In this document: in pieces, positions 6,759 to 41,638 of the stretch
How the letters are laid out: every line of letters begins with the position of its first letter
How positions within the stretch are numbered: position 1 is the stretch's first letter
Virus record (IMG/VR): IMGVR_UViG_3300024433_000015
Location: 1 to 42,476 of that record
Direction: 5' to 3' (one strand)
From: a virus
Length of the DNA stretch: 42,476 nucleotides
Translations under genes and position numbers: made by a program
The notes under the pieces: model-generated
Seen by the model: only the letters and a program-made list of their open reading frames with translations
Told to the model about the DNA's origin: nothing
Database searches by the model: none

Positions 6759-6775
6759 ATGGGTTTCTGTAAATT

Positions 6776-6811
6776 GAGGGAGGACTATCAACTGCGAGTT
6801 AGTTCTCCTTC
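6776..6811 (+). promoter_or_regulatory. RNA hairpin in leader of the split Rad50-like gene
   Basis: Arms GAGGGAGGACTA (6776-6787) and TAGTTCTCCTTC (6800-6811) pair over 12 positions with two G-U pairs, around a 12-base loop. No U-run follows, so it is not a classical terminator. It lies just upstream of the start at 6817/6829 and its left arm contains a GGAGG, so it could hide a ribosome-binding sequence or stabilise the message. Pairing was done by eye. Confidence 0.4.
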
Positions 6812-6816
6812 CCCTT

Positions 6817-8872: not shown

Positions 8873-8873
8873 A

Positions 8874-9662: not shown

Positions 9663-9972
9663 AGATAGATATGATGCTTTGATTGTGTCTTACAAAGAAA
9701 AGGAAAAAAAGGTGGTGGAGTTGCTGGCACAGAAAAAAGTGGCTGAGGAAGAACAACAAAAAATTAGAGATAAAATACAGAAATTGATTAAATCTTCTCC
9801 TGCTGATTTGGATAAGGTTATTGAAAAGTTGGAAAAAAGTATAGAAGTTGAGTTTAATGCTTTATCAAATAAAGTATTAGAGTTGGAGGATGCTATAGGA
9901 GATATTCAAGCGGGAGAGAAGGTTAAATCTACTGATTCTATAGATATAAATTCTCTAATTGAGGAGGTGTAA
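9652..9972 (+). CDS. Small coiled-coil protein, 106 aa
   Basis: Not recognised. Residues about 5-90 show heptad-like hydrophobic spacing with high Lys/Glu content (YKEKEKKVVELLAQKKVAEE), indicating a coiled coil. The start lies 11 bases inside the end of the Cas4-like gene, with TAAGGAGG just upstream (about 9641-9648). The gene directly precedes the sliding clamp. It might be an accessory or bridging subunit; no catalytic motif is present. Confidence 0.65.
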   Translation: MEVKDRYDALIVSYKEKEKKVVELLAQKKVAEEEQQKIRDKIQKLIKSSPADLDKVIEKLEKSIEVEFNALSNKVLELEDAIGDIQAGEKVKSTDSIDINSLIEEV

Positions 9973-9973
9973 A

Positions 9974-11077: not shown

Positions 11078-11708
11078 ATATTTTCAGGATTTGTCTGTTC
11101 GTCTTGATAATTTATTAGATATATTAAGGCGGGAAAAGGTTAAGGTAGAGGTTCGGGAAGCTGAACAAACTAAACTTTCTTTTTCTATTGATGAAAAAAG
11201 AAACGTGAATATAATTCTTCTTCAAGTTGTTGAGTTGTTTAAATCTTTAGGGGGAGTTCGAGAGAAGGAAATATTAGAAAAGTTAGAACACTTTGTAAGT
11301 TATGGGTTGTCTGCTGTTTTTGGTTTGACATATAGTTTTATTACAAATATGCGACTGGAGGGTAAAGAATTGCGAGTTGATTTTCAAATTAAGACAGGAA
11401 ATCTCCAGAGTGATGTTCTTACTGCTAAAGGAGGAGGAGTTGCTGAAGTTGTAAGTCTTCTTTTGCAGATATTCTTTGTGGTAATGTTGAAAGATAATAT
11501 TGCTCCTTTGTTGGTTTTAGATACAGTTTTACTTCATTTATCTTCACAATATCATGATAATATGTCTGCTTTGCTTAAGGAGATTGTGAGTACTGTGGGG
11601 ATACAGATGGTTATTTTGGCGAATCGAGGTACGTATGGGGGGAGTGCTGATGTAGTATATAAGTTTGAGCAGGTAGCTGGAAAAACAGTAGTTAAGAGGG
11701 AGAAATGA
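11067..11708 (+). CDS. Rad50/SbcC-like ATPase, C-terminal half
   Basis: After a short coil, residues 119-134 (TAKGGGVAEVVSLLLQ) match the ABC signature region as seen in phage SMC-like ATPases, and 147-160 (PLLVLDTVLLHLSS) is the Walker B and D-loop strand, followed by IQMVILANRG, the H-loop strand in which Asn/Arg replace the usual Thr-His. The protein has no Walker A. It therefore complements the gene at 6817-7773, which has Walker A but no signature. The usual catalytic Glu after Walker B Asp152 is Thr153. It overlaps the clamp gene by 11 bases and the next gene as ATGA. The two halves probably meet as one ATPase with SbcD. Confidence 0.72.
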   Translation: MESKYFQDLSVRLDNLLDILRREKVKVEVREAEQTKLSFSIDEKRNVNIILLQVVELFKSLGGVREKEILEKLEHFVSYGLSAVFGLTYSFITNMRLEGKELRVDFQIKTGNLQSDVLTAKGGGVAEVVSLLLQIFFVVMLKDNIAPLLVLDTVLLHLSSQYHDNMSALLKEIVSTVGIQMVILANRGTYGGSADVVYKFEQVAGKTVVKREK

Positions 11709-12088
11709 GTATTGAAGAAGAGATTTTGTCTGGGTTGTTATTTGGGGAGTTCAAAAGTCTTCTTGAATGTGGAGTCGAGATGTGGGTGGCTCCTATAAAA
11801 AGGTTTTTTATTGCTAATAGGAAATATACTCGATATTCTTTGAAAAGAGATAATGGAATAGTTGTGGCATGGGTGGAAAGACAGGATTTTAATATAATGC
11901 CCATTATTTTTTTGAATAAAAATACTATTAAGCGGTTGAGAGAAAGTCCTAATGTTTTAAGAGAAGTTATTCGACATGAATTGTGTCATATTGAATCAAA
12001 TGCGTTGGACGATGAAGAGCCTTTTGAGATACTTGCAAAGAGGCGGAAGGTGTTGTATGGGGATGGATTGAAAGAATTAGTTTGGTAA
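11705..12088 (+). CDS. Putative zinc metallopeptidase (HExxH; SprT-like)
   Basis: Residues 88-97 read VIRHELCHIE: His91, Glu92 and His95 form the HExxH zinc-peptidase core, within a helix. The preceding strand (MPIIFLNKN) and helix (NVLREVIRHEL) resemble the SprT/WSS1-like arrangement, whose members degrade DNA-crosslinked proteins. The protein is only 127 residues, shorter than SprT, and a third zinc ligand is not obvious. It sits within the repair genes (ATGA overlap with the Rad50-like C-half), so a DNA-protein crosslink role is attractive but unproven. Confidence 0.6.
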   Translation: MSIEEEILSGLLFGEFKSLLECGVEMWVAPIKRFFIANRKYTRYSLKRDNGIVVAWVERQDFNIMPIIFLNKNTIKRLRESPNVLREVIRHELCHIESNALDDEEPFEILAKRRKVLYGDGLKELVW

Positions 12089-12101
12089 AGGAGGATGTTA
12101 A

Positions 12102-12476
12102 ATGAATACTTCTGTTAAACAAAAAAAGAGCTATTGGGTGCGGTTTGTTGATGCCTGTAAGTCACAATGGGTTGGTGGAGGAGTGCGGTATGCTTTAGGA
12201 GAGGCTAAGGAATCAACAGATTTGGTGACAGAAGCCCTTGATGGTGGTTCTTCTAATGATGGGGCGAACTGGATTATGGGGAACATTTTAAAGTATACAA
12301 TGGAAATTATAAATGCAAAACGTAGGGGAGAGGCTCCACAAGAAATAAACTATTTTAAAATTGCTGTTTATAGTTTTATTGCCTGGATTAAGCAGATGGA
12401 TGCTGGTTTTTCTCAAAGGGATAAGGGGGAGGAGTTTGAAAAGAGAGGAGGCTTTGATGAAAATTTTAGCTCTTGA
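12102..12476 (+). CDS. Hypothetical protein, weakly DUF3310-like
   Basis: Not firmly recognised. The core NWIMGNILKYTMEIINAKRR and later YSFIAWI resemble the GNxxKYxxRxxxK pattern of phage DUF3310-type proteins, which are small and helical. The first third (YWVRFVDACKSQWVGGGVRY) is unlike that family. AAAGGAGG lies about 9 bases before the ATG. Its last 20 bases overlap the RuvC-like gene. Function unknown. Confidence 0.6.
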   Translation: MNTSVKQKKSYWVRFVDACKSQWVGGGVRYALGEAKESTDLVTEALDGGSSNDGANWIMGNILKYTMEIINAKRRGEAPQEINYFKIAVYSFIAWIKQMDAGFSQRDKGEEFEKRGGFDENFSS

Positions 12477-12912
12477 TTTAGGAACTAAGACGGGTTGGGC
12501 TGGTTCTGTTGATAAGAGAGTGGAAAGCGGAGTTCAAGATTTTAGTTTAAAACGTGGAGAAAGTCCTGGTATGCGTTTTGTTCGATTTAATTCTTGGTTG
12601 GTTGAAATGATTGAAGTAATTGAACCAGATATAGTTATATATGAACAGCCACATAATCGGGGAGGAGCCGCAACTATGGTTTTAAATGGTATGCTTGCTT
12701 ATGTTTTGGAGAAATGTGCAAAATATGAAGTTGAGCATGAACCTGTGCATTCTTCTACTCTGAAAAAGTTTGCTACAGGTTCAGGGAGAGCAGGTAAGGA
12801 AGATATGATTAAAGTGGCACAGGCAAGATTTCCTGAGAAAAAGATTATAGATGATAATGAGGCGGATGCTCTCTGTATCTGGTTGTGGGGACAGGAGGAG
12901 TTTAAGGATTGA
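12457..12912 (+). CDS. RuvC-like Holliday junction resolvase
   Basis: A 151-residue RNase H-fold nuclease of the RuvC type that would cut branched DNA. Acidic residues are in the expected order: LALDLGTKTGW (Asp6), IVIYEQP (Glu63), and DDNEADALC (Asp133/Glu135/Asp137). HSSTLKKFATGSGRAGKEDM matches the segment preceding the last acidic pair. The start is ATG 12457, with AGAGGAGG (12444-12451) just upstream. An in-frame ATG at 12361 would only add residues read through another gene. The stop is overlapped by the TTG start of the next gene (TTGA). It fits recombination-dependent replication or pre-packaging debranching. Confidence 0.85.
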   Translation: MKILALDLGTKTGWAGSVDKRVESGVQDFSLKRGESPGMRFVRFNSWLVEMIEVIEPDIVIYEQPHNRGGAATMVLNGMLAYVLEKCAKYEVEHEPVHSSTLKKFATGSGRAGKEDMIKVAQARFPEKKIIDDNEADALCIWLWGQEEFKD

Positions 12913-13490
12913 GTTGGTATGAGAATTACAGGAAAGATGTGTTAGCATGTCGGGCTTGCTCTGCTCGGAAAGAAGCTCATTGTCCCGTTGCTGGAGTTGG
13001 AAAGTCTGATGCAGATGTGGTATTTATAGGGCGGAATCCAGGAAGAGTGGAAGATGAAACTGGAGAACCCTTCACTGGAAAAGCGGGTCAGATTTTTGAC
13101 CAAGTGCTTATGGAAGTAGAGTGGGAGCGTCCTTTTATATTTATAACTAATTTGGGTCTTTGTCATACTAAGGATGATAGGTTGCTTTTACGGGAAGAAG
13201 TGGCTATCTGTGTAAGAAATTTTTTATATCCATCTATTGTAAATATTAAGCCAGAACTGGTAGTTGTGTTCGGACAGCAGCCTAACTATTTTTTGAACGG
13301 AATAAAATCAGTTAACCAATATTTGGGTGTGACAATAAGACATCGGTATTTTAATTGTTTGGTAATCCCGTGTATCCATCCAGCGGCGGTTATTTATAAT
13401 CCAGCAGAGTTTCAAAAATTACAGAAAGTGATGCGGAAGGCTTCTACTGTTTTGTCTTATTTAAAAAAGAAGGAAAATGCTGATGCGTAA
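12909..13490 (+). CDS. Uracil-DNA glycosylase, family 4-like (Fe-S)
   Basis: Residues 36-60 (DVVFIGRNPGRVEDETGEPF, then GKAG) match the active-site loop of family 4/5 uracil-DNA glycosylases, normally GEAPG; here Arg-Asn replaces Glu-Ala. Cys14, Cys17, Cys85 and Cys101 have the spacing of the 4Fe-4S ligands. ELVVVFGQQ and CIHPAAVIYN fit the later strands, the second with the HPA motif. Such enzymes remove uracil from DNA. The start is TTG 12909 overlapping the previous TGA; AGGAGG (12893-12898) is 10 bases upstream. Altered active-site residues leave open a different substrate. Confidence 0.82.
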   Translation: MSWYENYRKDVLACRACSARKEAHCPVAGVGKSDADVVFIGRNPGRVEDETGEPFTGKAGQIFDQVLMEVEWERPFIFITNLGLCHTKDDRLLLREEVAICVRNFLYPSIVNIKPELVVVFGQQPNYFLNGIKSVNQYLGVTIRHRYFNCLVIPCIHPAAVIYNPAEFQKLQKVMRKASTVLSYLKKKENADA

Positions 13491-16056
13491 TCCTATTCCT
13501 AAAGAAATAGAAGAGTTCTTGCAGGAACATCGCCATGAGATGGATACTCCTCAAGTATATTTGGGTCAAGAACCTAATACGTACCACAAGGATTGGGATA
13601 AGGCAAGGTTTAAGATTCTTATAGTTGCTCCTTATAGGTATGAGGATTTCAGAGGTAATCAAACTCTTCCTTTGTTATATCAAATGATTAATGAGAAGTG
13701 GGAAGATGTTGTTTGTGAGAGGGCATTTTTCCCAAATACAGAAAGAGAGTATAAGTTATTTTATAGATATAAAATTCCCATCTTTAGCGTGGAATCTAAA
13801 CATCCCATGAGAGATTTTGATGTTATAATGACATCTCTTAGTTTTTTACCTCCCTGGATTAATTTTCCTCTTATGCTTGAGATGAGTGGCATTCCTTCTT
13901 TATGGCGAGAACGGAGAAACACAAAAGGACAGTTTCCTTTGATTATGGTGGGCGGTAGTGCTGTGTATGGTAACTTTTGCATTACTTATCCTGTTGTAGA
14001 TTTAATTTATTTGGGGGATGCAGAAGATGAGGAGGATGGGGGGGTTTTTCAACTATTAGATATGATAATGCAGTATGAGACACTGGATTCTTTACAACAA
14101 CGGTTTGATTATATTTTTTGTCCTTCTCTGTATAGTCCTCAATATGAAAACGAAAAGTTTCTGAAATGGGAACATGAAAGGAAATATCCTGTTAAATTAA
14201 GACGACGGATTTGTAAGGATATGAATAAGGTTCCTATGTATACAAAACCTATACTTTCGTATACAGATACTACTATGGGGCTTGGAGAGGTTGAGATTTC
14301 AAGGGGTTGTCGGGGGATGTGTTTATTTTGTGGGATAGGTTGGAAGTATCGTCCTTATCGAGAACGTAATAAAGAAGTAATGGTGAAGGCTTTAGAGAAA
14401 AATCGTTGTGAAGGAGGAGCGGTTGCTTTTTGTCCTATAGCAACTGAATTTGCTTATTATTCACAAAAAAGGGGGTTGATTAAGGATTTACTTAATATAA
14501 GTCCGTATGCTGACCCTCTTTCAATGAGAGTTGATGCGTTTGCAGGAGACCCTTTATTCGATAAGATTTTAGCTGAGGCGGGGATGAATCAATTAGCATT
14601 GGGGGTTGAAATGGTTTCACAGCGGTTACGGAACCGTTATTGTAAAGGGATTACTGAAGATGATATTTTAACTGCGTGTCAAATTGCTATAGATAGTGGT
14701 AGATTTAAAAGGATTAAGTTTTTTATGATTTCTAATGTAGATGAGACAAAAGGGGATTTTGAAGAATTTTTTGAATTGCTAAGAAAAGTTGTATTGATGA
14801 GAGAGACGGCTAAGTCCAAGATTAGATTAAAAGCAAGTTGGACTCCATTATTTGTAGAACCCTGTACTCCTTTACAATGGAAAGCTCCTACTATTACTCA
14901 AAGGCAGAATTGGAAAGAAGTTGATAAGATTTTGGTGGGGGAACGGGATGAGGATGGAAGGCGGATTAAGGGTACAGGACTTGGTGTTGAATTTGCTTTG
15001 GGGATTAAAAATGAACCAAATTTTTTATGGATGATGCAGGGAATGCACCTTGGGGATACTCGATTTGCTGAAGCAGTTGTTAAGGCAACAAAACAATTAG
15101 AACGTCCATTTTATGTAGCCTTTGCTCGAAATACTGTGGATGTGGTCTCAGAATATATGAAAGGGGTAGGAACTACTTGGGATTATATTATGAGGGAGAA
15201 ATCTGAGGATGAAGCATTTCCTTGGGATATTGTGGATAGAGGAGTGAAGAAAGAAACGTTGTATAAATTATACAAAAAAAGTAAAATTACACAATTTGAC
15301 AATGAGACAGTATTAATTCAACCTGAAATAGAGGAATGTGATTTGTCGGATATGCTTGATTATATCCAGAAAAGTCGAAATAAACCAGAATTTTGGACAT
15401 GTCTAAAGTATTCTGTGGGCGAAGGTTTTGAAATAGTCCCAAACACTCACTGGAAAGCACAAATTCAGAGAGCAGGATATAAATCTGGAGTCCCTATTGT
15501 TGAAGGACAAATTCATTTTTTTAGTGACCGAGGAAATAGGAATTGGTATGGGGGATTTGACTATTGTGTTGTGGGGACATTAAGACCTTTACATGAGAAG
15601 GATATTGCTAATTTGAATCAATATTTTTGTGGTATGCAGGTTGTAGGATTTAGGGGAGGATTGAAACGAATTCAAGGTACCTGGGGGAGATACGTCAGTT
15701 TATATTCTGTAGATATTTCTGGGTTTCCTAACAAAGATATACAAAAATATAAAAAACTTTTTGCTGAAGCCTCCTCTATTGTAGTTTCAAATCCAGAGAC
15801 CCGTTATTTTTCGGGTATTTGGAAGAAGAAAATAAATTTAAAAAGTAAAGAAATTTTTATTAAATTTTTTCCTTTGGTTTCTTCAGAACAAGTTGGACAT
15901 CAAATTTTATTAGTTTGGCTTGACCATCAAGTAGCAATTCGGGCATTTTTACGAGGATTCTTTTCTAATTTGTCCTTTCAGCGAATTTTACAATTACACG
16001 TGGAAAAAGTGAAGATAGGCTATTATCAAGGAGAGGATGTATTAGAGGAGTTTTAA
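13483..16056 (+). CDS. Large radical SAM protein with B12-binding-like N-domain (TIGR03960-like)
   Basis: About 857 residues. The first 200 resemble the cobalamin-binding-like domain of the TIGR03960/YgiQ-type family (ERAFFPNTEREY, IPIFSVESKHPMRDFDVI, LIMVGGSAVYGN, VVDLIYLGDAEDE). The radical SAM motif is EISRGCRGMCLFCGIG, a normal CX3CX2C cluster site, followed by YRPYRERN as in that family, then a barrel with LALGVEMVS. The C-terminal 250 residues are unassigned. The cluster and S-adenosylmethionine would make a 5'-deoxyadenosyl radical; the substrate is unknown. Two starts are possible, ATG 13477 and ATG 13483; the second has better spacing (9) from AAGAAGG. It lies between the glycosylase and the clamp loader, an odd place for a metabolic enzyme. 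Confidence 0.75.
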   Translation: MRNPIPKEIEEFLQEHRHEMDTPQVYLGQEPNTYHKDWDKARFKILIVAPYRYEDFRGNQTLPLLYQMINEKWEDVVCERAFFPNTEREYKLFYRYKIPIFSVESKHPMRDFDVIMTSLSFLPPWINFPLMLEMSGIPSLWRERRNTKGQFPLIMVGGSAVYGNFCITYPVVDLIYLGDAEDEEDGGVFQLLDMIMQYETLDSLQQRFDYIFCPSLYSPQYENEKFLKWEHERKYPVKLRRRICKDMNKVPMYTKPILSYTDTTMGLGEVEISRGCRGMCLFCGIGWKYRPYRERNKEVMVKALEKNRCEGGAVAFCPIATEFAYYSQKRGLIKDLLNISPYADPLSMRVDAFAGDPLFDKILAEAGMNQLALGVEMVSQRLRNRYCKGITEDDILTACQIAIDSGRFKRIKFFMISNVDETKGDFEEFFELLRKVVLMRETAKSKIRLKASWTPLFVEPCTPLQWKAPTITQRQNWKEVDKILVGERDEDGRRIKGTGLGVEFALGIKNEPNFLWMMQGMHLGDTRFAEAVVKATKQLERPFYVAFARNTVDVVSEYMKGVGTTWDYIMREKSEDEAFPWDIVDRGVKKETLYKLYKKSKITQFDNETVLIQPEIEECDLSDMLDYIQKSRNKPEFWTCLKYSVGEGFEIVPNTHWKAQIQRAGYKSGVPIVEGQIHFFSDRGNRNWYGGFDYCVVGTLRPLHEKDIANLNQYFCGMQVVGFRGGLKRIQGTWGRYVSLYSVDISGFPNKDIQKYKKLFAEASSIVVSNPETRYFSGIWKKKINLKSKEIFIKFFPLVSSEQVGHQILLVWLDHQVAIRAFLRGFFSNLSFQRILQLHVEKVKIGYYQGEDVLEEF

Positions 16057-30583: not shown

Positions 30584-33500
30584 ATGCCAGGCGATTATTC
30601 GCAGGATATAAACACAAATATTGGTATTGATACAGGGGGGGCAGTAACCTCTGTAAATAATCTGTCTTCTTCTTTAGGTCGTACAACAGAAAAAACTGCA
30701 AAAGCTGTCCAGGGCTTAGGTTATATGCATTTAGCCTTAGTCCGTATTGCTACGTATACTGCTATCTTTACAGCAGTTGGGGGTTTAGCAAAACTTTTTG
30801 GTGATTTAGCTACTTTGGAACTTCGTCTTGCTGAAGTTTCTACTTTAGTTGATTTGAGGAATAAGCAAGCGGCAGCTTCTTTTTATGAGGTTAGAGCGGC
30901 TCTTTTAAAGTTAGACCCTCGTTTAGGAAATGCTATTGACCTTACTAAGGGTCTATATGAGATTATGTCCGCAGGTGTTAGTGAACCTCAACAGGCTTTT
31001 AAATTGTTGGTTGTTTCTGCTAAATATGCTAAAGCTGGTTTAACAGATTTGGCTACTGCTGCTTCAAGTTTAACTGCTGTTATGAAAGCATATAGATTAC
31101 CCGCAGAGATGATGCGGGAAGTTTCAGATAGGTTGTTTGCATCAGTAATGGAGGGGAAATATCATGCAGATGAGTTGAATGAAGCCCTTGGAAAAATCAT
31201 TCCTACTGCTGCGGCAATGGGAGTTCCTATTGGTGAGATAGTTTCTATTTTGGCTATTTTGACTCAACGGGGTCTTGATGTTAAGGAAGCAGCTACGGGA
31301 TTAAATCGGGCAATGATTTCTTTCTTGAGACCCACAGAAGGGTCTATTAAAATGTTTAAACGGTTAGGTTGGGAGTGGGGACGAGATGCCTTTAGAGCAT
31401 TAGGACTTACGGGAACGTTGAAACGATTAGACCAGACGAGTCAGCGTTATAGTAATCTTCTCCCTCAAATTTTTAGGCGACAGCGGGCTTTGCGGGTAGG
31501 ATTTATTCTTAGTGGAAAGGCTTTAGAAGATGTAGAGAGGATGATGCAAAAGGGAAACAAGGCTACAGAAGAAGGGGGAGAGGTTAATCGGGCTTATATT
31601 AAAATTAATCGTACAGTAATTGGAGAGTTGAAAATATTACAAGCACAACTTCTTCAAACTACTAATAAATGGTTAAAGTTTTCAGAATCGGCTAGAATTG
31701 GAGTACAGGGGTTTCGTTATATAGCTACTGCTGCAATACAAGGGATTGAAGGATTTATTGGTTATGGAGTTGCGTTGGGAGTAATAAGGACACTTTTAAA
31801 GAAGACTGGAGTAACTTTTTTAAGCACACAAGCAACTATGCAAAAATATCAAATTGCTCAAGATAAATTAAAACATAGCTCAGAGGTTTATTATCGTCAT
31901 GCAAGGCTTCGGAATATGCAGATGGAGAGGAAGATTAAACTTATGGGGAGAATAAAGGGATATGTAATTGTGGGTGCTCTTGCTTATGTAGTAATAAAGA
32001 AGGCTTTGAATGAGTGGGAGAAATCCTCAGATAAAGCCATTGCTAGTTTGATAAAACAAGGACAAAAGACCAAAGAATTGCGGACACAGCTTGATTTTAC
32101 TTCTACAGCATATAGGATGGCTACTGGAGAGGCTTTAAATCTAGCAAAAAAAGGAATGGATGAAGGTATAAATGCAGCATTTGAGAAAACAATAAAAATT
32201 GCTGGAGAATTTAATAATAAATGGAGGTTCTCTACAAAATTAATAGAGGATATGGGTAGAGGGACGACCTTAACTGCTAAAGGTATGGAAGCCTTTCGTA
32301 AAGATATGCATAGTCTGTTTGAGGGTATTAAAACAGGTTCGGTTGATGTTAAAGAATTTAATGCACTTTTATTGTGGTTGTCTAAAGCTTGGGGACTTCA
32401 GACTGAAAGAATAAAAAAAGTTAAGCAGGAATTACAAGATTATGGGAGAATTTTTACTTCTATGGGTAATGATGCTGAGAAGTACTTTGACCTTTTGGCA
32501 CAGTTATTGAAAGGTATGGGAATTGACCTTAAGGGGGTGAAAAAGGATGCTTTAGAGTTGGCAGAAGGACATAAAAAGGCATTTGAGATTGCAGATAAAT
32601 CATATCGGGAAATGACTTTTGTGTTGAGGGATTTGCAGGATGCAGCAGGGGCGGCTGCTATGCACCCTCGTACTATAGCTGAACAGTTTCCTATGGATAA
32701 GATTAAAAGTATGTATGCGATTATAAAAAGGTTTACTGGAGACATATCGGATTTAGATGAACTTGTTATAATGCGTTTGAGAGAAATGGGAATTAATGTA
32801 GAAAAAATAATTGAGAAATTGAAAAAAGCTGAACCTGCAATGAGAGATACCTTTGATGTAAAACGTGTTTTAGAACATCAGGCTGCAATTGATGATTGGG
32901 CAAGAACTTTTGGAGCAAAGACGGAAGAGCTAGCTCCTACTTGGCAGAAGTTTAGTCAGATGATAGCGGGGGCGGTTATTGAGTGGAAAAAACGATTAGC
33001 TATAGGCATCGCAGATGTGGGTGCTTTTGTAGAAGAACATAGGCAGTATATAAAAATTATGAAGCTTAATTGGGATAGGTTTAAACATTTAGTTGCTCCT
33101 GTGTATAGAGAAATAGTTGAAGTGTGGCTTGCTGCTTTGTCCAAGGGAACAGATAAACATGCAAAACTTGTTGAAAAAGCAACAAAGGCATGGGAGACTG
33201 GTGCAAATGATATAATGAAAATTCAGACTAATATAGCTGAATTTGAGAATGAATTATTAGGTAGACGATATGAAAATATAGTGTTAAAAACTAAGGAAGA
33301 AAATGAATTATTGAGTCAGAAATTTGATAAACAATATAGTTTGATGGTTCAGGCTTATGGTTTGAGTTGGAAACTCGGTTTGGAATATTTAGCAAAGAAG
33401 GCTTTGTTATTAAAAAAAGAGGAGAAAGCAGAAGAAGTTTCTGTGTTTCGGAGATTAGATGTATATTTAAAGGCTAAAAAAGAGACACTTGACCATGATT

Positions 33501-35719
33501 ATGATTATGTATTTCAGCGGATAAAGGTAGCGAGAGATATGTATGGTGAATTCGAAGATTTGATGAAAGCATGGGGAGTCACAAATGTAAAGATATTGAA
33601 AATTCTTAGAAAGGAGTGGGAAAAATATTGGGAAGAAGTTATTAAGGATTTAGGAAGGGGGCAAAGGGGTTTAATTGGGTGGATTGATGGGTTGAAAGCG
33701 TTTGCTCAAATGTTATCTAGTTTGGTGTCAGTATTCCGAAATTTAATGGAGGCTTTGGGTATAACAGAAGGATTTTTGTTCCGTGTTACTAATGCTTTGG
33801 ATGCAGTAGCTAAAGGAGCAAACTCTGCTGCTGCTTCTTTAAAGTTTATGCAGGAAGCAAAAGAATGGGGGCAAGGAGAAGGAGGCAATGCTCTTTTAAG
33901 TACTTTAGGGCAGGTGGCTGGAGCAATCAGTTTGGTTGTAACAATAGCCACTACTGCAATATCTGTTTTTAAAGCACTGTTTGGGGGTAAAAGTAAAGAA
34001 CAGAAAGCAGCGGAGGCGGCTCGTCAAGCAGAAGAAAGGCTTAAACAGGCAATTGATGGTGTAATTCGTAGCTTGCAACATCTTGGGAAGGTGTCAGAAA
34101 GTACGGCTGAAGAGATTTATGAATTGGCAAAGGAAGTTGGTCATACTAATGCCGTATTTATGCGGCTTTCTAATATTATGAAGGATACTGGAGTAAACAC
34201 AAAAAATTTTACTAAATATATAGACATGATGCGACACATGATTGAACGGGCTAAAAAAGGTTTAATGGATATGGCAGATTTTGTAAAGTCTTTTGGTAGT
34301 GCTTTCAGTGAAATACTTAAAGCTGCTCAGGAGTTAGGTCTTGAAGGTTCACGAGCCATGAGGAAGCTGATTTTAGAGGCTTTAGAAGCAGGGGTTTATA
34401 TTAAAGAACTGTATGATTATCTTGAAAGTAAATTGTTTAAGGCAGCCCAGGGTCTTCATGCTATGATATTGAATGTGGCAAAAGGTGCCACTGATATAGT
34501 GGAGAAGTTACGAGATTTAAAGAAAGAACGACGGGAAGTTCTTAAAAATATGGAACAAGCAAGGAAAGCTGTTGAAAAGCAAGCAAACTTAGATTTAAAA
34601 GAAATTATTAGGTTGAAGAAAAAGTTAGCATTATTGAAGGAAGGAACTAAGGAGTATGAAAAGATTTTTAATCAAATCTTGTTGTTGGAAACTAGAGGAA
34701 GTAAAGAATATCGGAAGCTCGTTAAAGAGTTAGAAAAATATAGAAAGCAATTATCTAAGATTGATATGGAGATGGGTGAGTATATGAAGATGATACATGA
34801 CATAGCAGTAGCTAGTCGGAAGGAACTTAAGCGTTTAGGATTGATTGCAGTTGGTACTTTTGGTGCTATGTTAAAGGCAGGGGTTCCTATGCTTGAAGCT
34901 ATGAAAGCAATGAAACCTGCTATAGATGCTCTTTTAGATAGGTATCGAATGTTGGGGTTGAAAGTTCCTGATGCCCTTAAACCTATGATAAAATTATTTC
35001 GGTCTATGCGAAAAAATGAGGAGTTTTATGAGGGTCTCCAAGGTTTGATGGATTTGGTAGAAGGTTTAGGTGATAGTGCAATGTTGACAGGAGACATGTT
35101 TAAATTGTTACAAAAGCAGGCAGGACAATATTGGAAACAACTAATTACGAAGAAAAAAGAAGGAGGATTTGGGTTTGAGACAGGGGAGGCGGCTCGTATG
35201 ATGTTTCCAATGCTACAAAAATTCTGGTGGTATGCTAAGGCGTATGGGTATAAATTAACAAAGGATATAAGGGATGCTATAAAAGCTGCTAAGGAAGCTG
35301 GATTGAAATTTGAAAAACCAGATATTGAGAGACAATTAGATGCTTTTGAAAAGTTAAGGGTATCTAATAGAAATATTTTAGCTGGACAAACAGACCGTAT
35401 GGTTAGTTGGTTGAGGAAAATTAACAAAAATTTAAGCAATTTGGGAAGTGCTCAAGGTGGGGTTCCTTATTTAGGTCATACAAGTCTTATTCATGCTCAT
35501 AGAGGGGAAGCTATTTTACCAGGTAATTTGAATGATGCAATGAGGCGTTTCTTTACAGGTAGAGGGGGAGGTTTTGGTGGTGGAGAAGGTGGTGCTGGTG
35601 GCGTTGCCAAGGTGAATGTATCTATAGATGGTCAAGTTATTTATAGTGCTTTGGCTCCTTTTATTAGGGAAGGAGCACGCTATGCTGATTTCGAACCTGA
35701 TGCCGAAGGGGTTTATTAA
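30584..35719 (+). CDS. Tail tape measure protein, 1711 aa
   Basis: The largest gene. Residues about 85-300 are the TP901-type tape measure core (LTKGLYEIMSAGVSEPQQAF, LTDLATAASSLTAVM, HADELNEALGKIIPTAA, GLDVKEAATGLNRAM). Hydrophobic segments near 459-474 (YVIVGALAYVVIKKAL) and 1107-1135 may insert in the host membrane. Long helical coils follow, and the end (GHTSLIHAHRGEAILPGN) is the usual terminal motif. At about 0.15 nm per residue, family knowledge would predict a tail near 250 nm. The start lacks a strong ribosome binding site. The stop overlaps the next ATG (TAATG). Confidence 0.95.
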   Translation: MPGDYSQDINTNIGIDTGGAVTSVNNLSSSLGRTTEKTAKAVQGLGYMHLALVRIATYTAIFTAVGGLAKLFGDLATLELRLAEVSTLVDLRNKQAAASFYEVRAALLKLDPRLGNAIDLTKGLYEIMSAGVSEPQQAFKLLVVSAKYAKAGLTDLATAASSLTAVMKAYRLPAEMMREVSDRLFASVMEGKYHADELNEALGKIIPTAAAMGVPIGEIVSILAILTQRGLDVKEAATGLNRAMISFLRPTEGSIKMFKRLGWEWGRDAFRALGLTGTLKRLDQTSQRYSNLLPQIFRRQRALRVGFILSGKALEDVERMMQKGNKATEEGGEVNRAYIKINRTVIGELKILQAQLLQTTNKWLKFSESARIGVQGFRYIATAAIQGIEGFIGYGVALGVIRTLLKKTGVTFLSTQATMQKYQIAQDKLKHSSEVYYRHARLRNMQMERKIKLMGRIKGYVIVGALAYVVIKKALNEWEKSSDKAIASLIKQGQKTKELRTQLDFTSTAYRMATGEALNLAKKGMDEGINAAFEKTIKIAGEFNNKWRFSTKLIEDMGRGTTLTAKGMEAFRKDMHSLFEGIKTGSVDVKEFNALLLWLSKAWGLQTERIKKVKQELQDYGRIFTSMGNDAEKYFDLLAQLLKGMGIDLKGVKKDALELAEGHKKAFEIADKSYREMTFVLRDLQDAAGAAAMHPRTIAEQFPMDKIKSMYAIIKRFTGDISDLDELVIMRLREMGINVEKIIEKLKKAEPAMRDTFDVKRVLEHQAAIDDWARTFGAKTEELAPTWQKFSQMIAGAVIEWKKRLAIGIADVGAFVEEHRQYIKIMKLNWDRFKHLVAPVYREIVEVWLAALSKGTDKHAKLVEKATKAWETGANDIMKIQTNIAEFENELLGRRYENIVLKTKEENELLSQKFDKQYSLMVQAYGLSWKLGLEYLAKKALLLKKEEKAEEVSVFRRLDVYLKAKKETLDHDYDYVFQRIKVARDMYGEFEDLMKAWGVTNVKILKILRKEWEKYWEEVIKDLGRGQRGLIGWIDGLKAFAQMLSSLVSVFRNLMEALGITEGFLFRVTNALDAVAKGANSAAASLKFMQEAKEWGQGEGGNALLSTLGQVAGAISLVVTIATTAISVFKALFGGKSKEQKAAEAARQAEERLKQAIDGVIRSLQHLGKVSESTAEEIYELAKEVGHTNAVFMRLSNIMKDTGVNTKNFTKYIDMMRHMIERAKKGLMDMADFVKSFGSAFSEILKAAQELGLEGSRAMRKLILEALEAGVYIKELYDYLESKLFKAAQGLHAMILNVAKGATDIVEKLRDLKKERREVLKNMEQARKAVEKQANLDLKEIIRLKKKLALLKEGTKEYEKIFNQILLLETRGSKEYRKLVKELEKYRKQLSKIDMEMGEYMKMIHDIAVASRKELKRLGLIAVGTFGAMLKAGVPMLEAMKAMKPAIDALLDRYRMLGLKVPDALKPMIKLFRSMRKNEEFYEGLQGLMDLVEGLGDSAMLTGDMFKLLQKQAGQYWKQLITKKKEGGFGFETGEAARMMFPMLQKFWWYAKAYGYKLTKDIRDAIKAAKEAGLKFEKPDIERQLDAFEKLRVSNRNILAGQTDRMVSWLRKINKNLSNLGSAQGGVPYLGHTSLIHAHRGEAILPGNLNDAMRRFFTGRGGGFGGGEGGAGGVAKVNVSIDGQVIYSALAPFIREGARYADFEPDAEGVY

Positions 35720-36822
35720 TGGGAAAACAACGGTTTTTATTTGACAAAATCACAAAAGAGGGCACTTTGTTCCCTATTGTAAGTACTGATTACCATCCTT
35801 CATATCCTGTAAGTAAAATTCAAAATATTTGGTCAGATTATTGGTATCGGACAAAGTATGGAGCAAATTCGGGGTGGGGTTCTTTTAATATTAATACTAA
35901 TAATAAATGGATAGATTTTAATGAGGGAGGAGGAGAACTATCAGCTCAGATTGTTGTTAATGATTATGATGCGAGTACATTATGTACAGCTATTAAAACT
36001 GCTATGGAGACTGTAGGAGCTTTAACTTATACTGTGACATATTCAGATACCTCAAATAAGTTTACGATTACAGGAAGTGGGGCTTTTACTCTTTTATGGC
36101 AATCAGGGAGTCATTCAGCAACCAGTGTCGGAAGTACTATTGGGTATTATGTTGGGGCGGATGATACAGGGGGGAGTTCTTATCCTGGAGACTACCCTAG
36201 AATTCATAGTCAAGCAGGGGTTGTGATTGAGTCAGGAGATTCTTCAGCCATTAGTACTACGGGTTGTGCTCTTTTCGGGTTAAACTTACTTTCAGCCTAT
36301 CAGACATTAAAGTTGCAACGATGGACTGGTAGTGCTTGGGAAGATAAAGCTGATTTTGATTATGATTTTGCTAATAAACGAGCTATTTGTTTTTATGCTG
36401 AAACATCTTCTACTAAATATCGGATATATATACGAGATAGAGAAAATCCCGCTGGTTTTTCTCAGATAGGAGCAATTCGATTAGGGGATTATAAAGAACT
36501 TAGTCAAGGGTATGAGTATGGAGCATTGCATGAATTGGATGATGTTAGTCCTCGTCAATATTCAAAAAAGGGTTATGTAAATATTACGGTTGGATATGAG
36601 ATGGATATTGAGGCAGTAGAATATACTTGTCAATCTTCTGATGAAGAAAAGATTAAAACTGTTTGGAAAAATACTTTGAACAGGTATCCTTTGGTTTTTG
36701 TTCGAGACGCTTCTCAGGCTAAGGAAACAATGAAATATATTTTATTTAGGGATAAATTTAGAAGAGTACAAGAGGATGGATATACAAAGGTAATTTCCCT
36801 TTGTTGGGAGGAATGTAGGTAA
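35719..36822 (+). CDS. Distal tail / minor tail protein
   Basis: A 367-residue beta-rich protein right after the tape measure. The N-terminus (MGKQRFLFDKITKEGTLFPI) is followed by many short strands; the middle (ALTYTVTYSDTSNKFTITGS, then LWQSGS) looks like a small insertion domain of the kind found in tail-tip or fibre proteins, and the end returns to a compact domain (SKKGYVNITVGYEMDIEAVE). Likely the ring connecting tube and hub. Stop overlaps the next start (TAATG). Assigned by position and composition. Confidence 0.6.
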   Translation: MGKQRFLFDKITKEGTLFPIVSTDYHPSYPVSKIQNIWSDYWYRTKYGANSGWGSFNINTNNKWIDFNEGGGELSAQIVVNDYDASTLCTAIKTAMETVGALTYTVTYSDTSNKFTITGSGAFTLLWQSGSHSATSVGSTIGYYVGADDTGGSSYPGDYPRIHSQAGVVIESGDSSAISTTGCALFGLNLLSAYQTLKLQRWTGSAWEDKADFDYDFANKRAICFYAETSSTKYRIYIRDRENPAGFSQIGAIRLGDYKELSQGYEYGALHELDDVSPRQYSKKGYVNITVGYEMDIEAVEYTCQSSDEEKIKTVWKNTLNRYPLVFVRDASQAKETMKYILFRDKFRRVQEDGYTKVISLCWEECR

Positions 36823-39281
36823 TGCCAATACAAACTTGGGAAGAACTTGTTGCTTTACCTAATCCTGACCTTATAGTTTTAGTTGAATTTAATCTGGGGT
36901 GGGAGACTCCTTGTGGAGATGACTGGACTTCTGAAGGGAGTAATACTTATTCTCATGCTTGTATTGAAGAGGAGGTGAACGCTTGTACTGATGATGGGCA
37001 GGAATTAACAAAGAAGAACAGTGTAGCAGAGGTAAAAGCCGTTGCGGGTAGTTTTTATTTTGATTTATTTGAACAAAAGATATATGTACATGCTTTTGAT
37101 AATGATATATTGAGTAATGATGCAGTAACAATTACGATTATGGTGTTTTTATGGAAGTATATTTCTTCAAAACCTGTTATTTTTAATAATCATCAATATC
37201 GTCCTTTAGCTACTTTAGATAGTTTACCTGCCTTGAGTTTATCTGTGGATGATATAGTAGATGGAACTTATAAATTTAATTTTGGTAGTTTTCATGTTAT
37301 GAATGATGGTTGGTTTGATAAAGCATCTGATAAATACGTTTGGATGAATCGTCGAATCTTAATAAAACTTGGTGGGGAGGATTTACCTTATAGTGAATAT
37401 CAAATGTATTTTGTGGGAAGGGTTTCGGATATTTATGTAGAAGATGAGAGGGCATTTTTTAGTGTAAAAGACATTCGAGTAGGTACTTTTTCACAGTTAC
37501 CTATTAATCATTATTGGAAATCTAATTATCCTAATATGGCTGATTTAGATGAATCGAAGCCAGAACAAATAGGTTATGGAGAAAAAGAAAATATTATTCC
37601 TGTTTGTATAGACCCTACAGTAAGTACGGGTGGTAAGTGGAAGATTGGGGGAAGGAAAATTAAAGAGTTTGTTCAGATTCGAAAGAATGGTAATGTTCTT
37701 ATTTCTGGAACAGATTATACGGAAGATTTGAATAATGCTGAGTTTACTTTAAATGTTTCTTTTAGTGCTGATAATGGGGATGTTTTGGAAGTTGATGCAA
37801 AAGGGATTGTGGATGCTAGTAATAATATGCTATATAAGGGAGCAGATATTGCTTTAGATATTTTAAAGCATTACTTGGGGTTTATTGATGATGATTTGGA
37901 TTTAGATTCTTTTGCTGCTACGAATGCAGTTCGAACTTATGCTCTTTGTCCTTTTATTGATGTTGATACGTCTTCAAGAGAAATTTTACAAACAGTTGGA
38001 CGAAGTATAATTGCTTTTTTTAGTCCTACTGAGGAAGGAAAGCTTTCTTTTGAAGCTTACGAACCTACAGTTCCAGCAGGGACTTTGGAATTATTTGACC
38101 CTGATTATCGTACCTGGAAGGTGGGGAAAGACCACAAGTTTGTTCGGAATAAAGTTAAGATTGAATATAACTATAACCCTAAAACACAGAAGTTTAAGGT
38201 TGTTGAGCGGAATAACTATAAAGTATTGCATAAATATGGAGTACGGGAAACACTCTCTTTGAAAACTTATATTAAAAATAAAGCGGATGCAGAAACAATT
38301 GCAGAAGGTGTTCGGGATATGGTTTCGAAACCAATAACGACTGTGGATACTTCTTTTGGTGTGAAAGGTTTTGTGTTATTCCCGACACGGAAAGTGAAAA
38401 TGACTAAAGGGAGAGCTGCGGATGTAGGTGGTAGTTTCAGTAAGAAGGTTTTTAGGGTTAAGGAAGTTTCAAAGGATACAACATCTGAGGCAACTCATGT
38501 TGTAGGTATGGATGACCTTCAGACTCTTGGGGAGTCTTTTTGTTATGTCTGTTTTAGTTGTCAAAATTGTGTGTCTGAGGAATCAAGCTGTCAAAATTGT
38601 TATACATGTCAAAATTGTTATACTACTCAAGGGGGTTGTCAGAGCTGTGATGTTTGTCAGTTATGTGTTTCTACTCAGACAGGTTGTGAGGTGTGTGATA
38701 TATGTCAAAATTGTGATACGTGTCAACAGACAGTTGGAAGTTGTGTGACCTGTGAAAGCTGTTATGGATGTCAGTTATGTAATACTTGTGAATCTGTGGT
38801 GTCATTTTGTGAAACGTGTGAAGGTTGTTTTGGATGTCAGTTATGTTTTTCGTGTCAATCAAGTGTGACCCAGTGTGAGACCTGTGAGTTATGTAATGTT
38901 TGTGAAGCATGTGATGCTTGTCAGATAAATGTAGGAACTTGTGGAACTTGCCAGAATTGTGTCAGTTGCCAGGTTTCTTATTCGGCATGTCCAGGAGCCT
39001 GTGATACTTGTGATTCCTGTGAAGCATGTGTAACATGTCAACAAGGAGTTCAGTCTTGTATTTGTTGTCAAAATTGTGTTCAATGCCAGGTTAGATATAC
39101 TTGTGCTTCATGTGATACATGTGAAAATTGTAATACTTGTCAGAATTGTGTGACAGCTCAAGATTGTACTGTATGTGATGTGTGTGATACTTGTGAAGTG
39201 TGTGATACTTGTGATACGTGTGAGATATGCCAGATTTGTAATGCCTGTCAAAGTTGTGACATTTGTCAGTTAAATGTTTAA
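36822..39281 (+). CDS. Tail hub-like protein with C-terminal cysteine-ladder domain
   Basis: Residues 1 to about 573 look like a tail-tip hub protein: strand-rich, with segments such as YQMYFVGRVSDIYVEDERAF and EGKLSFEAYEPTVPAG, in the place after the distal tail gene. Residues 574-819 abruptly become CxxC repeats, about 68 Cys in 246 residues by hand count. Best units are 22 long: six Cys at every third position, then a Cys-free linker (for example CETCELCNVCEACDAC + QINVGT). Nearly all Cys codons are TGT. Residues between Cys are mostly Asp, Glu, Gln, Asn, Thr, Val, Leu. The next two genes are a free repeat protein and a radical SAM/SPASM enzyme, so the domain may be post-translationally modified. 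Metal binding is the alternative. Confidence 0.85.
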   Translation: MPIQTWEELVALPNPDLIVLVEFNLGWETPCGDDWTSEGSNTYSHACIEEEVNACTDDGQELTKKNSVAEVKAVAGSFYFDLFEQKIYVHAFDNDILSNDAVTITIMVFLWKYISSKPVIFNNHQYRPLATLDSLPALSLSVDDIVDGTYKFNFGSFHVMNDGWFDKASDKYVWMNRRILIKLGGEDLPYSEYQMYFVGRVSDIYVEDERAFFSVKDIRVGTFSQLPINHYWKSNYPNMADLDESKPEQIGYGEKENIIPVCIDPTVSTGGKWKIGGRKIKEFVQIRKNGNVLISGTDYTEDLNNAEFTLNVSFSADNGDVLEVDAKGIVDASNNMLYKGADIALDILKHYLGFIDDDLDLDSFAATNAVRTYALCPFIDVDTSSREILQTVGRSIIAFFSPTEEGKLSFEAYEPTVPAGTLELFDPDYRTWKVGKDHKFVRNKVKIEYNYNPKTQKFKVVERNNYKVLHKYGVRETLSLKTYIKNKADAETIAEGVRDMVSKPITTVDTSFGVKGFVLFPTRKVKMTKGRAADVGGSFSKKVFRVKEVSKDTTSEATHVVGMDDLQTLGESFCYVCFSCQNCVSEESSCQNCYTCQNCYTTQGGCQSCDVCQLCVSTQTGCEVCDICQNCDTCQQTVGSCVTCESCYGCQLCNTCESVVSFCETCEGCFGCQLCFSCQSSVTQCETCELCNVCEACDACQINVGTCGTCQNCVSCQVSYSACPGACDTCDSCEACVTCQQGVQSCICCQNCVQCQVRYTCASCDTCENCNTCQNCVTAQDCTVCDVCDTCEVCDTCDTCEICQICNACQSCDICQLNV
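38541..39278 (+). repeat. CxxC repeat-coding region of the hub gene
   Basis: About 738 bases with TGT every 9 bases over long runs and a 66-base (22-codon) higher period, for example the three units from about 38742 to 38939. The copies are diverged in sequence but strict in Cys spacing, so selection on spacing is likely. The antisense frames in this region are shadows. Confidence 0.85.
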
Positions 39282-39293
39282 TGGAGGATAATA

Positions 39294-40055
39294 GTGGCTT
39301 GTAACGTCTGTGAGCAATGTGATACCTGCCAGCTCTGTGTATCAACGGAATGTTCTACCTGTGAAATCTGTGTTTCGTGTCAACAGGATGTGGCAAGTTG
39401 TACTACTTGTCAATTATGTAATACATGTGAATTAAACGTGACGACTTGTCAAACTTGTGAAATTTGTAATACATGTGAATTATGTGTATCAACTGAGGGG
39501 GGTTGTTATATATGTGACACGTGTGAACAATGTGTAGCTTGTCAATTATGTAATACTAATCAGGGTGGATGTCAGCAATGTGATTCCTGTGAAGCGTGTG
39601 TGGCTTGTCAATTATGCAATACAACCCAATTAGGTTGTGTTACTTGTGTAGCTTGTCAATTATGTAATACGTGTGAACAGTGTGTGGCTGACCAAGGAGG
39701 GTGTTCGGTATGTAATACTTGTCAGGCGTGTGTGGCATCTCAAGCTTGTGGAAGTTGTGATACGTGTCAACAATGTGTTAATTGTGAATTTTGTAATACT
39801 TGGCAAGGAGGATGTCAGGAATGTGATTCTTGTCAGCATTGTTATACAAATCAAGGGGAATGTGCTGTTTGTGATGTGTGTAATGCTTGTCAGAATTGTT
39901 TTAGTTGTCAACAGACTTTTACCTGTGTTTCATGTGATGTATGTCAGATATGTAATACGTGTGCGACATGTGATGTAACATGTCAAGGTTGTGATACATG
40001 TGAACAGTGTGTTGCGTGTCAAACTTGTGTTTTGTGTGAACTTGAGGTTTTGTAA
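39294..40055 (+). CDS. Free cysteine-ladder protein, 253 aa (about 69 Cys)
   Basis: The whole protein is CxxC repeats, the same as the end of the preceding gene, with about 69 Cys by hand count (27%). Units run six Cys then a linker such as NTNQGG, NTTQLG, VADQGG or NTWQGG, again a 22-residue period. It starts at GTG 39294 with GGAGG (39283-39287) 6 bases upstream, only 12 bases after the hub stop. There is no signal peptide, no basic leader region and no other domain. It could be a separate tail-tip part, a substrate of the next gene's enzyme, or a partner that pairs with the hub repeat domain. A metallothionein-like role is an alternative. I know no named family that matches. Confidence 0.88.
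   Translation: MACNVCEQCDTCQLCVSTECSTCEICVSCQQDVASCTTCQLCNTCELNVTTCQTCEICNTCELCVSTEGGCYICDTCEQCVACQLCNTNQGGCQQCDSCEACVACQLCNTTQLGCVTCVACQLCNTCEQCVADQGGCSVCNTCQACVASQACGSCDTCQQCVNCEFCNTWQGGCQECDSCQHCYTNQGECAVCDVCNACQNCFSCQQTFTCVSCDVCQICNTCATCDVTCQGCDTCEQCVACQTCVLCELEVL
39300..40037 (+). repeat. CxxC repeat-coding region of the free protein
   Basis: Covers the gene almost end to end. Recurrent short DNA words such as TGTCAATTATGTAATAC recur several times (near 39407, 39540, 39607 and 39652), which shows repeat expansion or exchange between units. TGT is by far the main Cys codon. Confidence 0.85.
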
Positions 40056-40123
40056 GTTGTGGTATATAAATTGAAGAATTTTTTGATTTATGGGTATATA
40101 TTATATAGAGATGGAGGATTTTT

Positions 40124-41638
40124 ATGACTAAGGAAGAATTAGAAAAAAGAAAACAACTTTGTAAAAATTGTTATACTTGTGAGAAAGGGGTATCTCCAGA
40201 TACAACAATTGATGATCTGAAAGAGGGAAAAGTGATTGAACCGATTTCTGTTCCTTTTCTAAAAAATGATGAAAAGAAAAAAAGGATGGAATTATGTAAA
40301 AATTGTTATACTTGTGAGAAAGGGGTATCTCCAGATAAAACTATTGATGATATGAAGGAGGGACAGCAGATTTTTTCTCCTTCAGGGAGCAGTTCTGATA
40401 GGGCTAAACAGTGTAGGGTTTGTTACACCTGTGAAAAAGGAGTATCAAAAGATATTACTATTGACCAGATGAGAGGACAATCACAGGATAGAGGCGGGAT
40501 GCCATTTGTGTATTATATTTTTAATTCGGGAGTATCATGTAATTTTAGATGTGCCTACCCATGTTATACAGGAGAGAATAAAGGTAGAATGTCTCGTTCT
40601 GTTATACATAAAACTTTAGAGTGGTTATTTAAGAAGCAACCATATAAAAATATTACCTGTCATTTTTTTGGTGGAGAGCCAACATTAAATTGGGATGGGC
40701 TTGTAGATATAGTAGAGATTGGAAATGAAATGGCAAAGAGTAATGGGTATACCGTTACTTGGTCTATGACTACAAATGGGTCACTTCTAAATGCGGAACG
40801 TCTAGATTGGATAACGAAGCGGTTTCGTCCAGGGAATCCTTTTTTGTTAAGTTTAGATGGTCGTCCTGGGACTCATAATAAATATAGAGTATTAGTAGGA
40901 GGAAAACCTACTTATCATTTGATTCCTGTAGATGATATAATAAAACGATTTCCTTCACTTGAAGTTCGTCCTACAATCTGTGCTGATACTGCTAAAGATT
41001 GGTTTGAGGATTATAGGTTTTTAAGAAATAAGGGGTTTAAATCAATTGCTATTGAACCTAATTATGAGATGGAGTGGTCAGAAGAACAATTGAGAGATTA
41101 TGGGAATATGTTAAGGCAATTAGGGAGATATTATATATATGCTCAGAAGGTCGGTCAACCTATTCGGATGAAGTGGGTTGAGGTTGTTATAGAAGGTTTG
41201 CAAAGAGGAGCAGCTCCAACGGGGCAGATGTGTGGGGTTGGTTTTAATTGTGCTGCTATTGACCATCGAGGTAAATTATATGCTTGTCAGCGGTATGCTA
41301 GCTATAATGAACCTGAAAAGTTTGCTATTGGGGATGTTGAAAAAGGATTTGATGAATTTAAGTTGTTAGAATGTCAATCTTTGTTGAGAGAGGAAGTTCA
41401 AGGAGATATTTCTGCTGGACATAATTGTAGAACTTGTGGAGTATCTCAATTTTGTTTTAAGGGGTGTAATGCAGGCAATGCAAAACTTATGGGAGACCGA
41501 AGACTTGCTCTTCCTAATTATTGTGTTTTAACTAAGATAGAAGTACGTGAAGCTTTATCTGTGTTAATGGAGTTGAACAAGCTCGGATTAAGGAAGGATA
41601 ATCAGTTTCAAGGACAGGGATGGGCTTGTCCAAAATAG
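40124..41638 (+). CDS. Radical SAM/SPASM enzyme with three substrate-like N-terminal Cys motifs
   Basis: 504 residues. Residues 1-120 hold three repeats: C13/C16/C19, C58/C61/C64 and C97/C100/C103, each reading CxxCYTCEKGVS followed by a TID segment. The radical SAM cluster motif is Cys139-x3-Cys143-x3-Cys147 (SCNFRCAYPCY), one residue longer than the usual CX3CX2C. HFFGGEPTLNW (GGEP) and LLSLDGRPGTH follow as in sulfatase-maturase-type enzymes. The C-terminal SPASM domain is clear: Cys370, 376, 388, then 435, 438, 444, 448 and 467, enough for two auxiliary Fe-S clusters. SPASM enzymes mostly modify peptides or proteins, including thioether links at Cys. With two Cys-repeat genes just upstream, these are the likely substrates. 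GGAGG is 6 bases before the ATG. Confidence 0.88.
   Translation: MTKEELEKRKQLCKNCYTCEKGVSPDTTIDDLKEGKVIEPISVPFLKNDEKKKRMELCKNCYTCEKGVSPDKTIDDMKEGQQIFSPSGSSSDRAKQCRVCYTCEKGVSKDITIDQMRGQSQDRGGMPFVYYIFNSGVSCNFRCAYPCYTGENKGRMSRSVIHKTLEWLFKKQPYKNITCHFFGGEPTLNWDGLVDIVEIGNEMAKSNGYTVTWSMTTNGSLLNAERLDWITKRFRPGNPFLLSLDGRPGTHNKYRVLVGGKPTYHLIPVDDIIKRFPSLEVRPTICADTAKDWFEDYRFLRNKGFKSIAIEPNYEMEWSEEQLRDYGNMLRQLGRYYIYAQKVGQPIRMKWVEVVIEGLQRGAAPTGQMCGVGFNCAAIDHRGKLYACQRYASYNEPEKFAIGDVEKGFDEFKLLECQSLLREEVQGDISAGHNCRTCGVSQFCFKGCNAGNAKLMGDRRLALPNYCVLTKIEVREALSVLMELNKLGLRKDNQFQGQGWACPK
40160..40202 (+). repeat. 43-bp direct repeat, copy 1 (radical SAM N-terminus)
   Basis: Identical to 40295-40337. Encodes the CKNCYTCEKGVSPD segment. 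Base-for-base identity, including third codon positions, points to recent duplication or gene conversion. Confidence 0.9.
40295..40337 (+). repeat. 43-bp direct repeat, copy 2 (radical SAM N-terminus)
   Basis: Identical to 40160-40202, offset 135 bases (45 codons), so it stays in frame. The third protein copy (residues 97-115) is diverged at DNA level. Confidence 0.9.

Follow-up and report, generated by a model that had tools for sequence, protein, structure and literature searches.

A candidate radical SAM maturation system for cysteine ladders at the tail tip of phages

Why would a phage keep a SPASM-type radical SAM enzyme among its tail genes, directly beside proteins that carry long cysteine repeats? 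The question arises from a complete 42.5-kb IMG/VR virus record, from a virus of bacteria, all 42,476 nucleotides of which were analyzed here (hereafter the window). The late half of the window is a head and tail module with genes for terminase, portal, major head protein, tape measure, and a 367-aa protein, followed by a trio consisting of a hub with a C-terminal Cys ladder, a free Cys-ladder protein, and the radical SAM enzyme (Table 1). The 367-aa protein is 31 to 76% identical to its counterparts in those relatives (clades A and B, below) that have it. The original prediction held that the three genes of the trio are adjacent and in one orientation within the tail module and that the enzyme modifies the repeats, and the open reading frames indeed have the coordinates given there, lie on the same strand, and almost abut one another after the tape-measure and 367-aa genes. 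Our own reading, to which we give a probability of about three in four, is that the trio is a phage tail-tip maturation system in which the SPASM enzyme modifies the ladder, most likely by making thioethers, to yield a rigid cross-linked fiber or spike. A second radical SAM gene lies elsewhere in the window (positions 13477 to 16056, 859 aa) and is related to the B12-binding radical SAM family TIGR03960 (E = 1e-68, below cut-off).

Table 1. Positions of tail-tip features in the window, with the evidence for each
Feature	Position	Strand	Basis or remark
Tail tape-measure protein (TP901/PhageMin_Tail)	30584..35719	+	PF10145 E 3e-24, TIGR01760 E 2e-22
Tail protein of 367 aa, flanked by tape measure and hub	35719..36822	+	same position in related loci
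Tail-tip hub with C-terminal Cys ladder, 819 aa	36822..39281	+	AlphaFold2 model and Foldseek
Hub Cys ladder, residues 574-819, 246 aa	38541..39278	+	68 Cys, most spacings exactly 3; pLDDT <40
Shine-Dalgarno GGAGG of free ladder gene	39283..39287	+	sequence
Free Cys-ladder protein, 253 aa, without other domain	39294..40055	+	ORF; counterpart in all Cys-type loci
SPASM radical SAM enzyme, putative ladder maturase, 504 aa	40124..41638	+	Pfam, NCBIfam, Foldseek
Substrate-like module 1 in enzyme N-terminus, CKNCYTC	40160..40180	+	sequence
Substrate-like module 2 in enzyme N-terminus, CKNCYTC	40295..40315	+	sequence
Substrate-like module 3 in enzyme N-terminus, CRVCYTC	40412..40432	+	sequence
Radical SAM cluster motif CX3CX3C (CNFRCAYPC)	40538..40564	+	inserted Pro common to L031
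SPASM region C370-x12-G-x4-C388 ... C435-x2-C438-x5-C444-x3-C448 ... C467	41231..41524	+	alignment

Cysteine ladders at a predicted tail-tip hub

An AlphaFold2 model built from an 11-sequence alignment gave pLDDT values mostly of 70 to 96 for hub residues 12 to 567, and its top Foldseek match in the PDB was 7zqp chain b, which we take to be the T5 tail-tip hub pb3 (E = 2.4e-19; TM, 0.42/0.47), followed by other T5, DT57C, Chi, and lambda tail-tip chains and by Mu gp44. By predicted fold the window hub is a T5-pb3-type tail-tip hub, and the ladder would therefore begin where siphophage hubs grade into the central fiber, which makes a position in the spike or central fiber reasonable. Structure prediction of the repeat, which had been suggested as a check, was informative for this hub part but gave no usable fold for the ladder (pLDDT about 25).

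The CxxC repeat of about 246 residues that had been claimed for the hub is present (Table 1). Its unit is C-[QE]-x-C-[DNYV]-[TSV], arranged in n-fold runs with linkers of 5 to 6 residues, and its spacing series (333-7-333-7-333-7-3333-7-33333-7...) is common to L031 and largely to L160. Across the related loci, runs hold 4 to 6 Cys at an exact spacing of 3, and linkers are mostly 5 to 6 residues long in clade A and 3 to 4 in clade B; the ladder of L203 keeps a regular 21-residue period across much of its length. The window and L031 agree in 67 of 68 Cys columns of the ladder but in only 88 of 178 non-Cys columns, and selection therefore maintains the cysteines; a chance or low-complexity effect would not preserve Cys columns so much better than their neighbors. 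Asp, Glu, Asn, or Gln directly follows about 70% of in-run Cys and, because the ladder has a period of three residues, recurs at i+4 of most of them, a pattern that may or may not amount to the PapB-type substrate motif CX3D/E.

The predicted 253-residue free repeat protein was also confirmed as an open reading frame, with 69 Cys and repeats that begin at residue 3. It is in frame with the hub, and we rejected the idea that it is a read-through extension, since it has its own GTG start with GGAGG 6 nt upstream. The free ladder of L031 (position 8149) apparently starts with ATC behind a GGAGG, as a rare start or a sequence error.

The SPASM enzyme and its pairing with the ladders

That the third gene encodes a SPASM-type radical SAM enzyme is borne out by two domain models above cut-off, namely Radical_SAM (PF04055, 29.8 bits against a cut-off of 29.5, E = 8e-7) and SPASM (TIGR04085, 34.7 bits against 27, E = 1.8e-8). 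The best NCBIfam family for the window enzyme is PapB (NF047865, E = 2e-57), as it is for five more enzymes of the Cys-type loci, and scores that run from 195 bits (window) to 281 bits (L142) stay under the family cut-off of 340, too low for the reaction to be deduced from family membership. The CXXX-repeat maturase model TIGR04115 gives the window enzyme 92 bits against a cut-off of 350. Seven SPASM cysteines (CX9-15GX4C, CX2CX5CX3C, C) are correctly spaced and invariant in all seven aligned enzymes. In the radical SAM motif itself, the window and L031 enzymes depart from the canonical CX3CX2C (Table 1), which is read in those of L203, L174, L245, L142, L161, L266, and L269. Non-canonical cluster spacings exist within the radical SAM superfamily, and CX3CX3C therefore lowers the certainty of activity rather than of membership. 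The window and L031 enzymes are nevertheless probably active, judging from the purifying selection on both (dN, 0.30; dS, 1.8, near saturation; dN/dS, about 0.16). In L149 (=L267; positions 7273 to 9597), the ladder enzyme is apparently split by an intein (CHVAGTRVL...) that starts within the radical SAM Cys motif.

A thioether is the most likely product, although another radical reaction on the ladder, such as epimerization, C-C or C-O cross-linking, dehydrogenation, or desulfurization with alkene formation, is an unlikely but serious competitor, given that SPASM maturases vary widely in chemistry, that no equivalog cut-off is reached, and that Foldseek matches of the enzyme core include anSME, ChlB, SuiB, SkfB, and EpeE. 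Against it, the best models of the Cys-type enzymes (PapB, SCIFF, quinohemoprotein, and nif11-type) include known makers of Cys thioethers, the closest fold is CteB, a thioether bond-forming enzyme (5wgg/5why, E = 9e-21; anSME next), and what stays constant in the substrate is Cys.

Cys-type loci were collected with two DNA-pattern scans for the Cys ladder and two hub-alignment scans, with the enzyme used in none of them. The trio of ladder, ladder, and enzyme occurs in at least 11 phages, the window and at least 10 more, a count that is a sample of phages and not a census. Clade A comprises the window, L031, L203 (=L236/L243), L245 (=L244), and L174 (=L248); clade B, whose hub is about 30% identical to that of the window, comprises L149, L266, L269, and L132 (=L268), the last with its enzyme cut off by the contig end. 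The trio also occurs in L142 and L161, two phages with other proteins. All 11 Cys-type loci have a counterpart of the free ladder. The ladders of L161 are short proteins of their own, encoded on the strand opposite a large tail-like gene and not belonging to a hub, so that attachment to a hub is not universal.

The original prediction would have been refuted by repeat genes widely found without a radical SAM neighbor or by the enzyme in unrelated contexts. Among the matches listed, we found no case in which a ladder locus with 2 kb or more of sequence downstream was without the enzyme (L160/L247 and L242 were left out, as their contigs stop at or inside the hub or free ladder). A tblastn search of 50,697 phage records with the enzyme found it in no unrelated phage context, its distant matches having at most about 31% identity among those listed and none covering 80% of the query; no ladder lay near the radical SAM matches in the four human gut phage records that we examined. 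As read from gene content, then, ladder and enzyme are paired. Neither the enzyme nor the hub, used alone as a single-sequence query against viral contigs, returned matches; finding the loci took the Cys DNA pattern and queries built from alignments. Scanning the genome collection with the enzyme returned one SCIFF-like bacterial maturase only (L123), and a hub scan of 399 genomes from the phylum of L123 found nothing convincing (one short match, E = 8e-4). Many loci from the Cys and pentad scans were DNA tandem repeats or off-frame matches and were discarded by amino-acid diversity. Three human fecal phage records (L252, L253, and L254; MT835472, MT835702, and MT836133) are probably bacterial sequence, as they hold apparent bacterial SCIFF-type maturase loci.

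Other Cys-rich proteins and radical SAM genes were seen in phages along the way. Phage or prophage tail modules of L146 (positions 8552 to 12568), L234, L127, and L171 hold two short CQTCQGCQ proteins between two radical SAM genes. In these modules, which also have Hint-like, holin-like, and amidase-like genes, Cys repeats and radical SAM enzymes are apparently paired independently. Achromobacter phage JWF (L256, positions 5670 to 9191) has in its tail module a Cys-rich tail fiber with NCNCDCNCNCSC before a Hint domain, two genes ahead of a phrog_1802 radical SAM gene, and phage 2-1 (L257) has the same gene order. Possible further cases come from L182 (6104 to 8677) and L150 (2616 to 6458), where Cys-rich proteins lie beside or close to divergent CX3CX2C proteins that resemble radical SAM enzymes. 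Campylobacter phage CC_R7 (PQ092953.1) has several radical SAM genes dispersed among tail and nucleotide genes, and its genome showed no clear case of a repeat-enzyme pair. Phage CxxC repeat proteins of another class, most of which have a W-D-NNN-W motif at the N-terminus, occur in L082, L137, L199, L201, L208, and L122 and have no radical SAM neighbor in the available sequence within 6 kb.

A His/Asp pentad system and the repeats carried by the enzymes

One relative has exchanged both repeat and enzyme. The hub of L246 is 54% identical to that of the window (BLAST) and sits in the same place and gene order, with no Cys ladder; after the hub domain come pentads of the form [PAS][HY]x[DHN][TSV] (PHSHT PHGDS PYEDS ...). 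The Cys-type enzyme is absent from this locus. Downstream there is instead a 539-aa radical SAM enzyme, SPASM-like but of another type, together with a radical SAM protein of the B12 type and, where the contig ends, a free pentad protein. In L203, L174, and L245, the Cys-type enzyme is followed by a gene whose relative in L246 lies directly after the hub and so marks the exchange site.

As an independent test, the viral collection was scanned with a DNA pattern for the pentad alone, and arrays of at least 15 pentads with at least 15 different words were counted as amino-acid diverse and taken as maintained at the protein level. Such arrays were found in six phages (L246, L273/L283, L285, L291, L305/L308, and L325), and in all six the array lies beside a relative of the L246 radical SAM gene (phmmer E = 9e-14 to 9e-53, excluding L246 itself). 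None of the loci with only low-diversity pentad arrays, some of them short, has the second enzyme. The tail role of the L246 pentad hub is clear; for the other pentad proteins, only fiber-like neighbors suggest one. His-type enzymes score best or near best, far below cut-off, against cyclophane makers (DynA, AmcB, and YhhB) and sulfatase maturases, and with PapB as the best model on the Cys side, enzyme class thus follows repeat chemistry.

The enzymes also carry the repeats of their neighbors. The first 125 residues of the window enzyme contain three ladder-like CKNCYTCEKG copies that the original prediction had overlooked, and all 11 Cys-type enzymes have two to five CxxCx.C modules, mostly CxxC[YFV]xC, N-terminal to the radical SAM core (window, 3; L031, 4; L203, 5; L174, 3; L245, 4; L266, 5; L269, 5; L149, 3; L132, at least 2 before the contig ends; L142, 2; L161, 2). 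The hub ladder likewise has CY[TS]C at its conserved start. Each of the six His-type enzymes has C-terminal HGD, HTD, or PHGD pentads, with P-H-x-D invariant there in the alignment. The three SCIFF-type bacterial maturases used for comparison (L252 to L254) have a different N-terminus without such modules. No leader is evident in the substrate and no RRE in the enzyme, although a divergent RRE could still be present; residues 11 to 126 of the window enzyme, which contain the Cys modules, have pLDDT <50. The ladder-like modules probably dock the enzyme on the ladder by repeat-repeat contacts that replace the leader/RRE interaction; self-modification and a built-in decoy are alternatives.

These results bear on two further explanations. 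The ladder could be a metal or Fe-S rod, metallothionein-like or an iron-loaded tip, with the enzyme and its Cys modules concerned with metal handling or incidental: about 27% of ladder residues are Cys, in a CxxC spacing that could bind Zn or Fe-S, and CxxCxxC recurs in the enzyme N-terminus. We consider this quite improbable, as it leaves a SPASM enzyme at every locus unexplained, His/Asp pentad arrays are likewise accompanied by a SPASM enzyme with matching repeats, and other phage CxxC repeat proteins (L082, L137, L201, and L208) have no such enzyme in the available sequence within 6 kb, so that Cys ladders per se need none. Least probable of all, to the point of being nearly negligible, is that the enzyme has some other target, such as a lipid, a small molecule, or the enzyme itself, and is tied to the tail by position only; its own repeats could be self-modified, but the fixed adjacency in at least 11 phages with several tail backgrounds (clade A, clade B, L142, and L161), the co-replacement in L246, and the matching of repeats between enzyme and neighbor argue against this explanation.

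Proposed maturation and comparison with known systems

Gene linkage, co-replacement in L246, the second system found independently, and the repeats with which the enzymes are tagged strongly support the maturation system that had been proposed; the ladder modification itself, the thioether chemistry, and the stiffening and docking roles we infer. The hub would project its C-terminal ladder where siphophage hubs have a central fiber, with the free ladder protein made alongside it. The adjacent SPASM enzyme, its N-terminal modules binding the ladder through repeat-repeat contacts, would modify the repeats before or during tail assembly, joining Cys sulfur to carbon of nearby side chains as a thioether with two H lost per link; Asp, Glu, Asn, or Gln at i+1 and i+4 would be candidate acceptors for most Cys. 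The product would be a rigid cross-linked fiber or spike that does not depend on disulfides. Taken together, the Cys-type and His-type loci are best read as two phage systems that arose convergently, each with a radical SAM enzyme that carries the repeat as a tag and modifies tail repeats. We lean slightly toward a still broader view, a general and convergent form of virion maturation in several phage lineages, in which tandem repeats of tail tips or fibers (Cys at every third residue or His/Asp pentads) are covalently cross-linked by a dedicated SPASM enzyme that recognizes them by bearing the same repeat and is not guided by a leader.

Small peptides, cofactors, and a few enzymes are the known targets of radical SAM maturation, and if our reading is true, large structural repeats of virus particles would join them. 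Such maturation would then be a new route to stiff protein fibers without disulfides, probably in anaerobic hosts, and would offer a testable reason for radical SAM genes beside phage tail genes, which are otherwise explained by the metabolism of the host. That repeat and enzyme are swapped together at one hub, and that every enzyme bears a repeat tag, suggests that recognition is modular and follows a rule that might be applied to the cross-linking of designed fibers. We found no description of radical SAM maturation of a phage tail, virion, or fiber in the open-license PMC literature.

Among known systems, the T5 pb3 and lambda J hubs resemble the predicted fold of window hub residues 12 to 567, and we know of no hub of this type with a Cys ladder or a dedicated maturase. 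The CXXX-repeat (TIGR04115), Cys-every-fifth (CefB), and His-Xaa-Ser (HxsB) systems likewise pair periodic substrates with dedicated SPASM enzymes, but they are bacterial and use other repeat units, and the window enzyme scores far under their cut-offs; to our knowledge, none of their substrates is a phage structural protein. SCIFF/CteB (TIGR03974; 5wgg, 5why) offers the closest solved fold and the SPASM cluster pattern. CteB has an N-terminal recognition domain and acts on a small six-Cys peptide, whereas the window enzyme has a predicted-disordered, ladder-like N-terminus in place of that domain. Phage-borne radical SAM genes were also reported in Campylobacter phages CP220 and CPt10, where they were called highly unusual and ascribed to host metabolism (PMC2853527); these and the phrog_1802 genes of Achromobacter phages JWF and 2-1 differ from the present system in enzyme and repeats. 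PapA/PapB is alike in having a SPASM enzyme and a substrate with repeated Cys and nearby acidic residues, and PapB makes Cys-Asp/Glu thioethers at CX0-6D spacings, both in line and nested (PMC9413430). The phage enzyme differs in scoring below the PapB cut-off and in carrying ladder modules, within a system that has no detected leader or RRE, and where PapA is a peptide that has a leader and six CX3D motifs, the phage substrates are arrays of about 50 to 300 residues, most of them on the tail-tip hub.
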